A stretch of 64,000 bases of DNA from Lactiplantibacillus plajomi. GTDB lineage: Bacteria > Bacillota > Bacilli > Lactobacillales > Lactobacillaceae. How positions within the stretch are numbered: the stretch's first letter is position 1; each line of letters starts with the position of its first letter. Below, piece after piece: positions 5,452 through 45,163 of this stretch. The stretch is taken from positions 62,001 to 126,000 of the forward strand of contig NZ_BJDZ01000006.1 of assembly GCF_005405405.1 (NCBI RefSeq), given 5' to 3'. Under the pieces are notes generated by a model. That model was given only the letters and a program-made list of their open reading frames with translations. It searched no databases and had not been told where the DNA came from. A program made the position numbers and the translations under genes.

Positions 5452-6335
5452 GCAAAGAATTAGACATTGCAAACCCCGCCCGCACCCGGGCCATTATGAA
5501 CACGTACGGCCTGCAAGTGAAGAAGAGCCTCGGGCAGAACTTCCTGACCGACCAAAACGTGCTCCACAACATCGTGTTTACGGCCGACATTAGTCAGGAC
5601 GATAACGTGATTGAAATCGGCCCCGGAATCGGTGCCCTAACCGAATATTTAGCCCGCGCCGCCCACCAGGTATTAGCGTTTGAAATCGATGACCGCTTAC
5701 TACCGATTTTGGATGAGACCCTAGCCGACTACGATAACGTTGAAATTATCAACCAGGATATTTTGAAGACCGACTTAACCGCGATGGTCGCTGAACATTT
5801 AGACAATGAACGTCCGCTTAAGTTGGTCGCAAACCTACCATATTACATTACGACGCCGATTTTAATGAACTTATTAGCGGGGGACGTGGCCTTTGAAAAC
5901 ATCGTGGTAATGATGCAAAAAGAAGTGGCCGACCGCTTATCCGCTGAACCGGGTACCAAGGCGTACGGTGCGTTAACGATTGCCGTTCAGTACCGGATGG
6001 CTGCCGAGTTGGCGATGGTCGTGCCGCGTAGCGTTTTCGTGCCGGCCCCGAACGTCGATTCCGCAATCGTGAAGTTAACGGCATTGCCACCACGGACCCA
6101 CGTTCCGTTTGACGAAGCCGCCTTCTTTAAAGTGGTCAAGGCGGGCTTTGCGCACCGCCGGAAGAATTTATGGAATAATTTGCAAAGCCTTTTTGGTAAG
6201 CAAGCGGAAACTAAAAACGCGATTCAAACGGCATTGGACACTGCCGGGATTGATCCTAAAATTCGTGCGGAACGGCTGACCGTCGACGAATTTATTACCT
6301 TAACGGATGCGCTCCACCAGGCGGACTTACTTTAG
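5448..6335 (+). CDS. rsmA: 16S rRNA dimethyladenosine transferase
   Basis: SAM-dependent methyltransferase (KsgA) that dimethylates two adjacent adenines near the 3' end of 16S rRNA during 30S assembly. It has 295 residues from ATG 5448, which overlaps the rnmV stop as ATGA and follows AGAGGAGAA. Motif I is IEIGPGIGALTEYL, and NLPYYITTPIL is the N6-adenine methyltransferase NLPY motif. The C-terminal small domain contains FAHRRKNLWNNL. It is the last gene of the tatD-rnmV-rsmA operon. Confidence 0.96.
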   Translation: MSKELDIANPARTRAIMNTYGLQVKKSLGQNFLTDQNVLHNIVFTADISQDDNVIEIGPGIGALTEYLARAAHQVLAFEIDDRLLPILDETLADYDNVEIINQDILKTDLTAMVAEHLDNERPLKLVANLPYYITTPILMNLLAGDVAFENIVVMMQKEVADRLSAEPGTKAYGALTIAVQYRMAAELAMVVPRSVFVPAPNVDSAIVKLTALPPRTHVPFDEAAFFKVVKAGFAHRRKNLWNNLQSLFGKQAETKNAIQTALDTAGIDPKIRAERLTVDEFITLTDALHQADLL

Positions 6336-6356
6336 AGTGACAAAGCTATAAAATTG

Positions 6357-6385
6357 TTGCACATCGGAAAACCTTGTGATATAAT
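6357..6385 (+). promoter_or_regulatory. Strong promoter of veg
   Basis: TTGCAC (6357-6362), 17-base spacer, perfect TATAAT (6380-6385). It starts 21 bases after the rsmA stop. The veg promoter of B. subtilis is also known as very strong. Confidence 0.85.
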
Positions 6386-6438
6386 ATTGACTTTTTTGTG
6401 AAAAGCTAGTATCATGTCTTTCATGAGGAGGATTCTGA

Positions 6439-6690
6439 ATGCCAATTTCACTAGCTGCAATTAAAGACAAACTCGACTCCCGGATCGGCCAACGAATGAA
6501 GGTCGTCGCCCAAGCGGGTCGCAAGAAAACGACGGAACGCCACGGTGTCTTAAAAGAAACCTACCGTTCCGTATTCGTTGTGGATTTAGATCAACAGGAA
6601 AACGCATTTGAACGGGTCTCCTATAGTTATACTGACGTGTTGACAAAGAACGTTCAAATCGCCTTTGAAGACGAAAAAACAGAAGCATAG
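6439..6690 (+). CDS. veg: Veg protein (DUF1021)
   Basis: Small protein of 83 residues with the Veg/DUF1021 pattern: IGQRMKVVAQAGRKK, then ERHGVLKETYRSVFVVDLD and a C-terminal VSYSYTDVLTKNVQI. In B. subtilis Veg is a highly expressed protein linked to biofilm matrix gene control; its biochemical role is unclear. ATG 6439 follows GAGGAGG. It has its own near-consensus promoter and terminator, so it is a strong one-gene unit between rsmA and ispE, as in Bacillus. Confidence 0.93.
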   Translation: MPISLAAIKDKLDSRIGQRMKVVAQAGRKKTTERHGVLKETYRSVFVVDLDQQENAFERVSYSYTDVLTKNVQIAFEDEKTEA

Positions 6691-6716
6691 TTCGCACCAC
6701 GTGAACACATAATATT

Positions 6717-6741
6717 AAGACCCCCAGCAAGGTCTTTTTAT
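6717..6741 (+). terminator. Terminator of veg
   Basis: AAGACC (6717-6722) and GGTCTT (6731-6736) with an 8-base loop, then T residues. Confidence 0.75.
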
Positions 6742-6821
6742 TTTGCCTTGATATTAGTATAATTGTATCAAAGTAAGCTTACGACCCGGTTTATCGCGGT
6801 CATGGAAGAGGGTGCGAACGC

Positions 6822-7688
6822 GTGCAAATCGTTGAAAAAGCTCCGGCAAAAATTAATTTGGGGCTGGACACTTTATTTGAACACCGCAACGGTGACAAGG
6901 AATGGAACATAGTTATGACTTCGGTCGATTTGGCGGATTACGTTCAGTTGGAAGACTTGGCGACCAACCGCATTGAAGTCGTCACCGACAGCGGCTTTTT
7001 ACCGAATGACCGGCGCAACCTGGCTTTTCAAGCGGTGAGCGTGTTAAAACGGTACTGTCACGTTGAACGGGGGGTTCGCATCACCATTAAAAAAGTGATT
7101 CCGGTTGCCGCCGGATTGGGTGGGGGCTCGTCCGACGCCGCCGCGGTCTTGCGCGGATTGAACCTGATGTGGCACCTGGATTTAGACTTAGCGACCCTGG
7201 CACGTTTAGGGCTGAAAATCGATTCGGACGTGCCGTACTGCGTTTATAGTCAGACGGCCCACGTAACTGGTAAGGGTGAGATTGTGACGCCGTTACCCAA
7301 GCTACCACCAATGTGGATTGTGCTGGCCAAACCCAAAATCAGTGTTTCGACACCCAATATTTTACGGCAGGTCAACTACGCGCAGTTGACGGCGCATCCC
7401 GATATTGACCAGCTACTGGCTGGTATTCAGCACGGGGACGCCGGTGAAATTTTCGCCCACATGGGGAACGTGTTGGAGCCGATTACGGCCAAGCGCCACC
7501 CGGAGATTACCCAGATTAAGCAACAACTCCTGAACTTCGGCGCGGACGCCGCCCAGATGAGTGGGACCGGCCCGACCGTCTTTGGGGTCTGTCGCAAGCA
7601 ATCGCGGGCGCAGCGGGTCTATAACTCGTTGAAGGGATTTTGCCGGGAAGTCTACCTGGTTCGGCCGGTCAACTTGGCTGATCACTAA
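6822..7688 (+). CDS. ispE: 4-diphosphocytidyl-2-C-methyl-D-erythritol kinase homologue
   Basis: GHMP-family kinase of 288 residues starting at GTG 6822 after GAAGAGGGTG. KAPAKINLGL at the N-terminus and PVAAGLGGGSSDAAAVLRGLN near residue 95 are the IspE substrate and ATP-binding motifs; MSGTGPTVFGV near residue 245 is the third GHMP motif. IspE phosphorylates CDP-methylerythritol in the MEP isoprenoid pathway. Lactobacilli generally make isoprenoids by the mevalonate route, so the physiological substrate here is uncertain. The place between veg and purR is the Bacillus order. A perfect TATAAT lies at 6758-6763 after the veg terminator. Confidence 0.88.
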   Translation: MQIVEKAPAKINLGLDTLFEHRNGDKEWNIVMTSVDLADYVQLEDLATNRIEVVTDSGFLPNDRRNLAFQAVSVLKRYCHVERGVRITIKKVIPVAAGLGGGSSDAAAVLRGLNLMWHLDLDLATLARLGLKIDSDVPYCVYSQTAHVTGKGEIVTPLPKLPPMWIVLAKPKISVSTPNILRQVNYAQLTAHPDIDQLLAGIQHGDAGEIFAHMGNVLEPITAKRHPEITQIKQQLLNFGADAAQMSGTGPTVFGVCRKQSRAQRVYNSLKGFCREVYLVRPVNLADH

Positions 7689-26606: not shown

Positions 26607-26676
26607 GTTACCCGTTGATTAAAACAATGATAATCTCTGTTTCAGCAAATGATTCAGGGCAAAGGAGCGTAATACA

Positions 26677-39204: not shown

Positions 39205-39255
39205 GTTTTAGCGGATACATGACAAATTAACTCCAGAAATGGTGTGTTGATAATA

Positions 39256-39286
39256 AAAAGTCGAGCGTTGGCTCGGCTTTTTTGTT
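39256..39286 (+). terminator. Terminator of cshA
   Basis: AAAAGTCGAGC pairs with GCTCGGCTTTT around GTTG, followed by T. Confidence 0.88.
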
Positions 39287-39433
39287 GCCGTTAAATGGTA
39301 AACTATGGGGGCACCGGTCGAAGATAACGAACCTTCACGCCAACGTGAAAAGATTGCGTGCTGGTTTTCCTTTTATCGCCCCGGAAGCTGTGGTAAATTG
39401 GAAATATCAGACACGATGAAAGGCGGCGCGAGC

Positions 39434-41707: not shown

Positions 41708-41730
41708 GAAAGCCGTTTTGTATTTTCACA

Positions 41731-41769
41731 ACGTGGTTCGTAACCATCCCACGTTAAAAAACTAGGAGG
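41731..41769 (+). promoter_or_regulatory. preQ1-I riboswitch
   Basis: The stem ACGTGG/CCACGT (41731-41736 with 41749-41754) encloses TTCGTAACCATC and is followed by TAAAAAACTAGGAGG. This is the compact class I preQ1 fold (P1, C-rich loop, A-rich tail ending in AAAAAACTA). The ribosome site of queT directly continues the tail, so preQ1 binding should hide it and reduce translation. Confidence 0.88.
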
Positions 41770-41779
41770 AACTAACAAC

Positions 41780-42397: not shown

Positions 42398-42549
42398 CGG
42401 TCCGCTCCGCCGTCACGAAAGCAAGGCTGTGGGCACGCTCGGAAGCCGATTCACAACCCGAATCGTCTCCCAAGACGGCCTTGTTGTAAGTCGCCCAAAA
42501 ACGGCGACCAACAACAACCTCACAGCCATGTTTCGAAGGGCTCCGGGAC
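42398..42549. repeat. Structured repeat A, copy 1
   Basis: First of three nearly identical GC-rich units of about 153 bases. Ends GGTCC and GGGAC; inner helices CGAAA/TTTCG and GGCTGTG/CACAGCC; inside these, two hairpins: CGATTC/GAATCG and GTTGTAAGTCGCC with GGCGACCAACAAC. No ORF with a ribosome site fits it. Confidence 0.85.
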
Positions 42550-42932
42550 AGCATCTAATTTGATAACCAATTGTTTCAAAGACACAACATACATATGCTG
42601 AAAAGCTTTTCTTAATGCAAATCGGTAATAAAATTATTTTTACAAATGGTCTTAGTATGCCGGTCCGCTCCGCCGTCACGAAAGCAAGGCTGTGGGCACG
42701 CTCGGAAGCCGATTCACACCCCGAATCGTCTCCCAAGACGGCCTTGTTGTAAGTCGCCCAAAAGACGGCGACTAACAACAATATCACAGCCATGTTTCGA
42801 AGGGCTCCGGGACCTAAGTAGAGCATCTGATTTGATAATCATTCGTTTCAAAAACACAACATACATATGCTGAAAAGCTTTTCTTAATGCAAATCAATCA
42901 TAAAATTATTATTACAAATAGTCTTAGTATGC
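42550..42932. repeat. Repeated AT-rich spacers between A units
   Basis: The bases after copy 1 (42550-42660) and after copy 2 (42815-42932) are nearly the same, including ACACAACATACATATGC, the palindrome GAAAAGCTTTTC and CTTAGTATGC just before the next unit. So the true tandem period is about 263-272 bases. Confidence 0.8.
42661..42814. repeat. Structured repeat A, copy 2
   Basis: Same unit, 263 bases after copy 1. Differences from copy 1 are few and fall mostly in loops, such as CCAAAAGA in the second hairpin. The spacer before it (about 110 bases, AT-rich) is also repeated between copies 2 and 3. Confidence 0.87.
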
Positions 42933-43085
42933 CGGTCCGCTCCGCCTGCACGAAAGCAAGGCTGTGGGCACGCTCGGAAGCCGATTCACACCCCGAATCG
43001 TCTCCCAAGACGGCTTTGTTGTAAGTCGCCAAAAGACGGCGACCAACAACAACTTCACAGCCATGTTTCGAAGGGCTCCGGGACC
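42933..43085. repeat. Structured repeat A, copy 3
   Basis: Same unit, 272 bases after copy 2. It has CTGCACG for CGTCACG near the start and a one-base shorter hairpin loop. The repeated spacer does not follow it, so the tandem array ends here. Confidence 0.86.
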
Positions 43086-43120
43086 TAAATTACAGCATTA
43101 TATCTAATAACGCGTTAGAT

Positions 43121-43160: not shown

Positions 43161-43287
43161 CAGATAACTTGAATTAGTAATTCTGAACGGATAGATCCTA
43201 AAATTCTTGATTTTCTAAGTAGTGACCCCCATTCAATAATCAATTACCGACCTAACGCAATCTATTCATACAAATTAACTTACTAAT

Positions 43288-43468
43288 GCCTGCCAACGAC
43301 CAACTTAAGCTTGGAGGGAAAGCGGGAACAGTCCCAGCGGTGAAGTTTCACTTGGTCGCCGGTTTTTGGCGAGTTAGTGAAAGCCCGGTGGTTAAGACCT
43401 GGGTTGTGGGCTTAACCCCGAGGCCACCGCGTTCCGGACTGATTCCCGCTGACTGGAAGGCTGACAAG
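43288..43468. repeat. Structured repeat B, copy 1
   Basis: About 180 bases. The core 43321-43450 closes with AGCGGGAACAGTCC against GGACTGATTCCCGCT (14 pairs, one bulge). Inside are two hairpins: TTTCACT..TCGCC/GGCGA..AGTGAAA, and CGGTGG..GTTAAG/CTTAAC..CCACCG. This is a three-way junction fold. GCCT at the start can pair with AGGC at 43458. No ORF is convincing. Confidence 0.82.
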
Positions 43469-43606
43469 TGTTTACTAACTTCGAAGCGATTACCAACCAC
43501 TAGGATGAAGTGACGTTACCCATCTGTTTAGTACGTCTAATATTGTGTCCCTGACAGCTAGATTTAACAGCGAGTTTTTCACCAATTCTCATCAATGAAA
43601 TCTAAC

Positions 43607-43787
43607 GCCCGCCAACGACTAATTAAAGCCTGCAGGGAAAGCGGAAACGGTCCCAGCGGTGAAGTTTCACTTGGTCGCCGGTTTTTGGCGAGTTAGTGAA
43701 AGCCCAGTGGTTAAGACCTGAAGTTTGGGCTTGACCCCGAGGCCACCGCGTTCCGGACTGATTCCCGCTGACCGGAGGGCTGGCAAG
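43607..43787. repeat. Structured repeat B, copy 2
   Basis: Second copy, 319 bases after the first, with about 20 scattered differences. The three-way junction is kept. The outer GCCC/GGGC pairing here replaces GCCT/AGGC of copy 1. Bases 43569-43606 before it recur in altered form at 45119-45163, beyond the IS element. Confidence 0.82.
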
Positions 43788-43896
43788 AAAAACTAACTCG
43801 GAATCGAGCTAAACTTAAATAATTAAGTTCTGTTTTTCTTCAATTTAGTAACACTATGGATTTAGGTCAAGAATCTGGACACATTTTATGTATAAT

Positions 43897-44730
43897 TTAA
43901 GCGACTAATTTTTCCTTTTCATTTGGAGTTAAATAATCAATGCTACTGTGAATTCGAGCACTGTTATAAAAGCTCTCAATGTAGCTGAATATTGCAGCAT
44001 TTGCTTCTTCAAAATCCTGATAATGGTGTTGGTAAACCTCTTCTTTTTTCAAACTGGCGTGAAATGATTCCAAACATGAATTGTCATAGGGACAGCCACG
44101 CTTGCTATAAGAATGGCGAATATGGTGTTGCGCTAAGATCTGTTCAAAGCCAGCACTGCGGTACTGGCTACCCAGATCGGTATGCACAATTAAGTTATTA
44201 GTCGTCTTTCTAGTTTCAAAGGCTTGTTGAAAAGTGCTGATCACAAGATCAGCAGTCATATGACGGCTGATTTTATGGGCAATGATTTTACGTGAATATA
44301 AATCCTGAATGCTTGATAAATAACACCAGCCATTGGCTTTGGTGTGAATATAAGTTATGTCTGCACACCACTTTTGATTTGGACTGGTTGTACGAAAATC
44401 TTGCGCGAGTATATTTGAATAATCAGTCGCATCAATATCATTAGTTTGTTGATAATGCCACTTCTTGCGCGTGATTGATTTTAACCCCATTTGGCGCATT
44501 AATCGTTGAACTAGCTTAATACTGGCAGTCTTACCTTCTTTTTGTAACGCTTTTAGAATTTTAGGTGCCCCGTAGATACGTCTAGAATTAAAGTAAATGC
44601 GTTTAATCGACTGGCTAAGTGTCTTACGACGCTTGGCTTGTGGCGATACATGATTCTGCTGATGTTCATAGTAAGTTGAGCGTGGAACTGAGAGTACTTT
44701 ACAGGTTTCTTTGATACTATGGTGCTTCAA
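43897..44730 (-). CDS. IS3-family transposase OrfB
   Basis: DDE integrase-type catalytic part of 277 residues as an own frame from TTG 44730. An HTH_21 region (ETCKVLSVPRSTYYEH, then RRIYGAPKI) is followed by the rve core, with Asp in KWCADITYIHTK, Asp in VHTDLGSQY and Glu in CLESFHASLKKE; the catalytic triad is complete. It is probably made mainly as an OrfAB fusion by -1 frameshifting. In the shifted frame the chain continues upstream into orfA without a stop. It looks active. Confidence 0.92.
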   Translation of the reverse strand: MKHHSIKETCKVLSVPRSTYYEHQQNHVSPQAKRRKTLSQSIKRIYFNSRRIYGAPKILKALQKEGKTASIKLVQRLMRQMGLKSITRKKWHYQQTNDIDATDYSNILAQDFRTTSPNQKWCADITYIHTKANGWCYLSSIQDLYSRKIIAHKISRHMTADLVISTFQQAFETRKTTNNLIVHTDLGSQYRSAGFEQILAQHHIRHSYSKRGCPYDNSCLESFHASLKKEEVYQHHYQDFEEANAAIFSYIESFYNSARIHSSIDYLTPNEKEKLVA

Positions 44731-44765
44731 ATTAATATCAACGGCTGTCTGCCAGTCATCTGGGT

Positions 44766-45023
44766 TTACTTTTTGGCGAATATGGTTAAGGCTTTTTTTA
44801 AGATGTCATTCTCACTTTCTAGCTGTTTCAAACGTTTTTGCAACGCTAAAACATCTGATTTGGAAATTCCACTTCCTTTGTCTTCTTTATATAGATTAAT
44901 CCATTTGTAAATAGTTACATTTGATACACCATATTCGTCTGTAAGATCAGCTACCGGGGCGCCATCCTGGTACAGCTTGACAATCATTTTTCTAAAATCT
45001 ACTGAGTACTTTTTCTTGGTCAT
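44766..45023 (-). CDS. IS3-family transposase OrfA
   Basis: Protein of 85 residues with a helix-turn-helix (YSVDFRKMIVKLYQDG...DLTDEYGVSNVTIYKWINLY) and a C-terminal leucine-zipper-like stretch (LQKRLKQLESENDILKKALTI). It binds the IS ends and can regulate transposition. Read from ATG 45023; a run of seven A near its end allows -1 frameshifting into orfB. Confidence 0.92.
   Translation of the reverse strand: MTKKKYSVDFRKMIVKLYQDGAPVADLTDEYGVSNVTIYKWINLYKEDKGSGISKSDVLALQKRLKQLESENDILKKALTIFAKK
44792..44799 (-). other. -1 frameshift site of IS3 element
   Basis: On the minus strand, AAAAAAAG lies 11 codons before the orfA stop. OrfB is in the -1 frame relative to orfA (the start-to-start distance of 293 bases equals 3x98-1), and that frame is open from here into OrfB. 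Confidence 0.75.
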
Positions 45024-45118
45024 AAAAACACAATCCTTCCTATTATGGAATTATACTAAATCGTGTCCATGATTTCATACTACCTTCACTATGTCCAAAC
45101 ATGACTTAATGTTGTTGG

Positions 45119-45163
45119 CAGCGAGTTTTCACACTGGTTCTCATCAATAAGGTTAGACACTGG
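45119..45163 (+). repeat. Remnant of repeat-B upstream flank
   Basis: AGCGAGTTTTCAC..TTCTCATCAAT.. resembles 43570-43606, the sequence just before B copy 2. This suggests that the repeat region once extended past the present IS element. Confidence 0.5.

Follow-up and report, generated by a model that had tools for sequence, protein, structure and literature searches.

Introduction

REPIN units are 20–25 nt long, and we know of no 9-bp target duplications or terminal inverted repeats associated with Y1 enzymes. BOX elements of Streptococcus pneumoniae are modular, tandem-variable, structured intergenic repeats, and in these respects they resemble, in a lactic acid bacterium relative, the element described here; they differ from it in that their modules are not known to share a single fold in inverted pairs. 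REPIN/RAYT systems share with it the inverted paired units, the dozens to hundreds of copies and the species-specific families (in part PMC3116915), whereas the present units are about five times longer, branched, associated with 9-bp duplications and without a tie to Y1. MITEs such as QMITE2 of Coxiella and Correia/NEMIS are likewise non-coding, intergenic and multi-copy, with terminal inverted repeats and short direct repeats, according to a review of prokaryotic MITEs that also names BOX elements, states that MITE transcripts can fold and contains no occurrence of Lactobacillus (PMC10969869). Unlike these MITEs, the present element has as its body an inverted pair of homologous three-way-junction modules with covariation across 14 genera, and no autonomous partner was seen. 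Covarying non-coding structures have also been proposed in the same order, Lactobacillales, as candidate structured RNAs, including Lacto-rpoB, Lacto-usp, Lacto-int and others (PMC2864571, 2010).

We analyzed a window of 64,000 nucleotides from Lactiplantibacillus plajomi and followed its repeats into related genomes. The repeats probably belong to a non-coding, MITE-like dispersed element of the Lactobacillaceae, the body of which consists of two three-way-junction modules in inverted arrangement, here called A and B. The analysis yielded a common fold with strong covariation, divergent pairing, dispersal and between-species differences in the sites occupied, and, in relatives, repeats at the termini and target duplications of 9 bp. 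What is new is the branched, covarying inverted pair; the MITE-like behavior is of an already known kind. No paper on the element was found in the literature searched, the coverage of which mostly excluded subscription journals.

If this reading is true, a structured element that reaches at least 150 modules per genome stands unannotated in food and probiotic lactobacilli, with consequences for the annotation, assembly and RNA-seq mapping of carrier genomes. The element would combine a branched, covarying fold with a small transposon, features that are usually seen apart, and would thereby enable a sharp test of whether the spread of a bacterial repeat is compatible with selection that preserves a complex RNA or single-stranded DNA shape in each copy.

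The cluster in the L. plajomi window

An earlier note on this DNA had reported two diverged B units 319 bases apart, and the two B modules are indeed separated by that distance and are 90% identical. The reported region, 43288–43787, is nevertheless only part of a cluster spanning about 42380 to about 45160, with alr, pemK and queT with its PreQ1 riboswitch on the left and genes for a CBS-domain protein, an L,D-transpeptidase and L-lactate dehydrogenase on the right. The features are listed below, with scores from R1, a covariance model built from B-type copies only.

39205–39305, no strand: DEAD-box helicase/acpS intergenic region; in the related genome G243 its counterpart contains the complete element, which is absent here
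42398–42549 (R1 core 42414–42537), minus strand: A module copy 1; 97% to the A query; R1 66.6 bits, E 3.9e-17
42655–42822 (R1 core 42677–42801), minus strand: A module copy 2, identical with the A query; R1 63.7 bits; fold z −6.2 on the minus strand
42927–43088 (R1 core 42949–43072), minus strand: A module copy 3; 96% to the A query; R1 62.4 bits
43089–43282, no strand: A/B spacer of about 190 bases; aligns with the spacers of other clusters and is more diverged than the modules
43283–43468 (R1 core 43328–43442), plus strand: B module copy 1; R1 126.8 bits, E 2.7e-35; among the model-building sequences
43602–43787 (R1 core 43647–43761), plus strand: B module copy 2; R1 116.6 bits; in the model
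43788–43874, no strand: first part of the right tail, ending at the IS3 insertion; matches the tail 3' of B in other clusters
43875–45068, minus strand: IS3-family element in the right tail, a passenger outside the repeat; ends read by eye, terminal TGGACA/TGTCCA
43897–44730 and 44766–45023: IS3 transposase open reading frames with rve and HTH_Tnp_1 matches
45095–45160, no strand: right tail resumed after IS3; equals the tails of clusters C18, C47 and C7a

The modules encode no protein, as had been stated. The suggested tie to IS3 elements was rejected: the IS3 element sits as an insertion in the right tail, and neither a transposase gene nor any other gene family recurs inside or beside the modules elsewhere. 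No Rfam 15 family matched the region at its gathering score, and the best sub-threshold match to a module was at chance level; Lacto-int has no Rfam entry and hence falls outside this comparison. The only Rfam 15 matches at gathering score in the window lie elsewhere, namely a PreQ1 riboswitch at 41727–41771, immediately 5' of the QueT transporter gene, and an L31-Firmicutes ribosomal protein leader at 26635–26667.

Fold, covariation and strand

On the plus strand, B folds as a three-way junction that is closed by a stem and bears two long arms, the shape that had been read from the window, at −85.2 kcal/mol (z −4.7), an energy reached by none of 200 shuffles. The minus strand of the region also folds (z −6.0), so that folding energy alone leaves the strand undecided, a point on which the earlier note had been rightly cautious. 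An ungapped inverted match of 40 nt at 80% links A and B, and R1 matches the three A copies of the window at 62–67 bits (E 4e-17 to 7e-16). Because R1 finds A with no A copy in the model, A and B are one fold with different sequences, which bears out the suggested common origin.

The fold was evaluated over a 119-column core in 29 B-type copies, comprising 5 from the L. plajomi genome, 23 from related members of the genus and family and 1 from an L. pentosus plasmid. Among these copies, which come from several genera, 26 of the 39 pairs of the fold change on both sides yet stay paired. The covariation score, in a tally that counts sequences rather than events, is 0.497 versus 0.155 (sd 0.011) in shuffled alignments, with 96.8% versus 79.0% of cells paired; none of 500 shuffles reaches either value, and slid controls give 0.03–0.09. 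Within the L. plajomi genome, by contrast, covariation among the 18 B copies does not exceed that of shuffles (94.6% versus 94.5% paired; double changes in 4 pairs versus 2.4), these copies being too alike to provide sufficient variation, and the proof therefore rests on the cross-species alignment. Accordingly, the single compensatory outer pair that had been noted is weak evidence when taken alone.

Covariation of this kind might, in principle, be an artifact of hairpin-templated correction of mutations in a functionless repeat that is decaying. Double changes do outnumber single ones in G243 (55 versus 10 cells), and the two ends of one copy covary as well, both of which would be expected from such correction; however, these cell counts tally inherited changes repeatedly, and conservation across genera extends to unpaired positions that are invariant or nearly so, namely the CA/GUUCC internal loop that lies beneath the junction and the A bulge of the third arm. 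We regard this explanation as very unlikely.

The strand is resolved by the type of mismatch tolerated. A hand count in the 29-copy B alignment gives 32 G-U versus 10 A-C cells, and in the 24 B copies of G243, where 65 cells differ from the commonest pair and 63 of these still pair, there are 8 G-U and 0 A-C. This excess of G-U over A-C assigns the fold to the plus strand for B and the minus strand for A; the covarying strand of B is thus settled, and RNA is favored over single-stranded DNA as the working form. In a survey of 197 modules, 80 of 176 P3 loops fit C-UNYG-G and 37 fit N-UNYG, a rough pattern in which some loops are misread.

Copies in L. plajomi and spread across Lactobacillaceae

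A BLAST search of the L. plajomi genome found 18 full B copies, 14 full A copies and 5 further partial A copies, with A and B each about 90% alike within the genome. These fall into 12 sites, 10 of which hold A on the minus strand followed by a divergent B on the plus strand; of the other two, one is located at the end of a contig and the second holds two B copies with only a distant A fragment. This high-copy dispersal and the divergent A/B pairs, together with the terminal repeats and target duplications of relatives, had been missed by the earlier note. At one of the 10 A+B sites, C7a, A and B stand about 1 kb apart. A stretch of about 1 kb with an open reading frame of 117 amino acids, of unassigned kind, separates A from B there (contig C7, about 5675–7033), and is the sole extra sequence of such kind seen in this genome.

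At E<=1e-4, R1 matches 89 of 301 Lactobacillaceae genomes and 14 of 40 genera, in a survey run with stricter filters and scoring at most 12 candidates per genome; at this threshold the survey gave no R1 match in G038 and G211, which are two species from the genus of L. plajomi. Across 246 genomes of the order there were 9 matches, 8 inside Lactobacillaceae and 1 marginal match outside (E 6.7e-5). When 150 candidates were scored, two genomes contained at least 150 modules and four others 143, 92, 79 and 72. The matches listed in a pattern scan included species of Lactiplantibacillus, Levilactobacillus, Liquorilactobacillus, Companilactobacillus, Secundilactobacillus and Pediococcus. Parts of the element are carried by 26 plasmid records of Lactiplantibacillus and Ligilactobacillus; the compact form of L. 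songbeiensis described below was not found in plasmids, phage records gave no match with the B query, and viral contigs none with one exact pattern.

Architecture and terminal repeats

Adjacent modules no more than 800 nt apart at 80 named loci are divergent in 50 cases, tandem in 4 and convergent in 0, with a median core gap of 91 nt (155 of 160 rows counted, 5 fragments at locus ends being omitted). G243 has 56 R1 matches, mostly in divergent B/A pairs within units that are mostly 740–900 bp long and carry inverted end repeats, whereas L. songbeiensis and L. dongliensis have compact units of 300–400 bp ending in ACGCTTGGTGCTAGTT, with about 50 nt between the outer stems. The end sequence of the element is ACGC(T/A)TGGTGCTAGTT, and terminal inverted repeats are present in L. 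songbeiensis, L. dongliensis, G243 and L. plantarum EGD-AQ4. A count in L. songbeiensis gives 99+99 sites for the end motif versus 4 for the reversed control. End repeats are weak in two G243 groups (L118, second, and L131) and were not found near the usual place in 3 of 29 (L121, L130 and L133). A search at 11 clusters of the L. plajomi genome found no terminal repeat, the best inverted match being 6–13. Derivatives of about 125–270 bp that keep the end repeats and have lost one or both modules were seen at L286 (577–700), L326 (267–420) and L327 (268–538).

In 19 G243 copies, 18 bases of the inner end repeat match better within a copy than between copies (0.933 versus 0.832, p<=2e-5); both ends were located independently by likeness to one consensus, and 5 copies with mutually chosen ends were excluded. 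This likeness may reflect pairing between the two ends within a single strand, or template switching that makes them alike. Matched ends also bear on the possibility that the repeats are chromosomal DNA sites, dispersed and retained through selection, at which a nucleoid, replication or repair protein recognizes cruciforms or single strands. Matched ends, symmetric pairs, foldability of both strands and the intergenic position of all 28 G243 sites (by simple open reading frame calls) would fit such sites, but a bias toward G-U over A-C on one strand would not, nor would copies on plasmids or a copy number that differs widely among close species and, at E<=1e-4, is zero in two sister species. 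This makes DNA-binding sites a rather improbable explanation.

Movement of the element

For 18 elements with both ends, all from relatives, the 9-base flanks match at 4.83 of 9 positions versus 3.08 (sd 0.33) in permuted pairs (p<=5e-5). The signal is found at offset 0 only and is lost on frame shift; width 8, which lies inside 9, gives p=0.004, and widths 7, 10 and 11 are not significant. Perfect 9/9 flanks occur in 2 of the 18 and in 1 further element, a 154-bp deletion derivative. A fixed-length target duplication of 9 bp, the terminal inverted repeats of relatives and intergenic, transposase-free multiplication are thus all features that the element has in common with MITEs, and, since terminal repeats were not found at the 11 L. 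plajomi clusters, the evidence for mobility is confined to relatives.

Comparison of the L. plajomi and G243 genomes shows sites that differ between species. Only one of the 12 L. plajomi sites, C18, shares its flanking genes with a G243 element, and two G243 element sites, in the helicase/acpS region and at L110, lack the element in L. plajomi, at a divergence between the genomes too high for exact junctions to be read at these empty sites. At the cluster in the window, gene order between the two breaks after pemK. Among plasmid sites checked for emptiness, one held a partly deleted copy and none was cleanly empty. The G243 copies are at most 92% identical to each other, which places movement on an evolutionary time scale.

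In L. songbeiensis, a 3.4-kb unit bounded by two perfect ends, the single unit of this kind examined, was rejected as an autonomous partner, as it contains host genes only. A REPIN-like origin, in which an inverted hairpin pair is moved by a Y1 (RAYT-type) transposase that recognizes single-stranded hairpins, would accord with inverted paired units that are numerous, intergenic and long-lasting. The Y1 transposase domain Y1_Tnp (PF01797) is, however, absent from five element-rich genomes of the genus (G099, G172, G243, G258 and G273), whereas G038 and G211, which are element-free, contain it. Moreover, units of about 115–180 nt compare with 20–25 for REPINs, and 9-bp target duplications and terminal inverted repeats are unlike the behavior of Y1 enzymes as we know it. 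The PF01797 distribution and the target duplications largely refute this reading, which we consider extremely unlikely. The MITE-like element would instead have been moved, now or formerly, by a DDE-type (cut-and-insert) transposase acting in trans.

Genomic setting, constraint and proposed role

Module divergence in G243 is 0.047 for A and 0.075 for B, versus 0.150 for the spacer and 0.17–0.20 for the flanks, which suggests constraint on, or homogenization of, the modules. The flanking genes of the 28 G243 sites are convergent in 9 cases, in the same direction in 13 and divergent in 6, and 10 L. plajomi sites comprise 6 same-direction, 3 convergent and 1 open; a convergent-gene niche, suggested by the first clusters, was rejected on these counts.

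The modules could also be read as divergently transcribed genes for small structured RNAs, such as regulatory RNAs or sponges, that are kept by the host and duplicated around the genome, the terminal repeats marking spread only. The strand-specific wobble in both alignments (32 G-U versus 10 A-C; 8 versus 0 in G243), the 63 of 65 departing cells that remain paired, the P3 loops that fit C-UNYG-G (80) or N-UNYG (37) among 176 and the lower divergence of modules than of spacer are all in keeping with this explanation. On the other hand, compact elements would leave scant space for two promoters, copy number ranges from 0 (G038 and G211) to at least 150 inside one genus, and derivatives minus one module persist. 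Host-kept RNA genes are therefore possible but somewhat doubtful. The small promoter space in compact units makes it more likely that any RNA action takes place within transcripts entering from neighboring genes.

For the MITE-like element, we propose a unit of 300–900 bp in the order terminal inverted repeat, minus-strand module, spacer, homologous plus-strand module and terminal inverted repeat, with extra modules in tandem in some species, L. plajomi included. The fold may have been retained because the modules act as single strands, with RNA being more likely, and transcription entering from either side would expose one correctly oriented module. Possible roles would include ending, trimming or protecting transcripts between genes. 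A broader version of this proposal, which we hold to be unlikely, is that the element is a family-wide mobile structured RNA, i.e., a gene-less transposon with two divergent, branched working RNAs, in which a transcript from either side presents one functional module and which is kept as a bidirectional transcript-end or RNA-protein binding device.

Variation within the module

B-like modules whose first arm is interrupted by a long extra hairpin, of one kind in both cases, were seen at L116 (3600–3760; G243, 770 kb) and at L321 (5130–5280), which lies on a Ligilactobacillus salivarius plasmid. The extra hairpin may be another small element, or it may mark a larger variant of the module.
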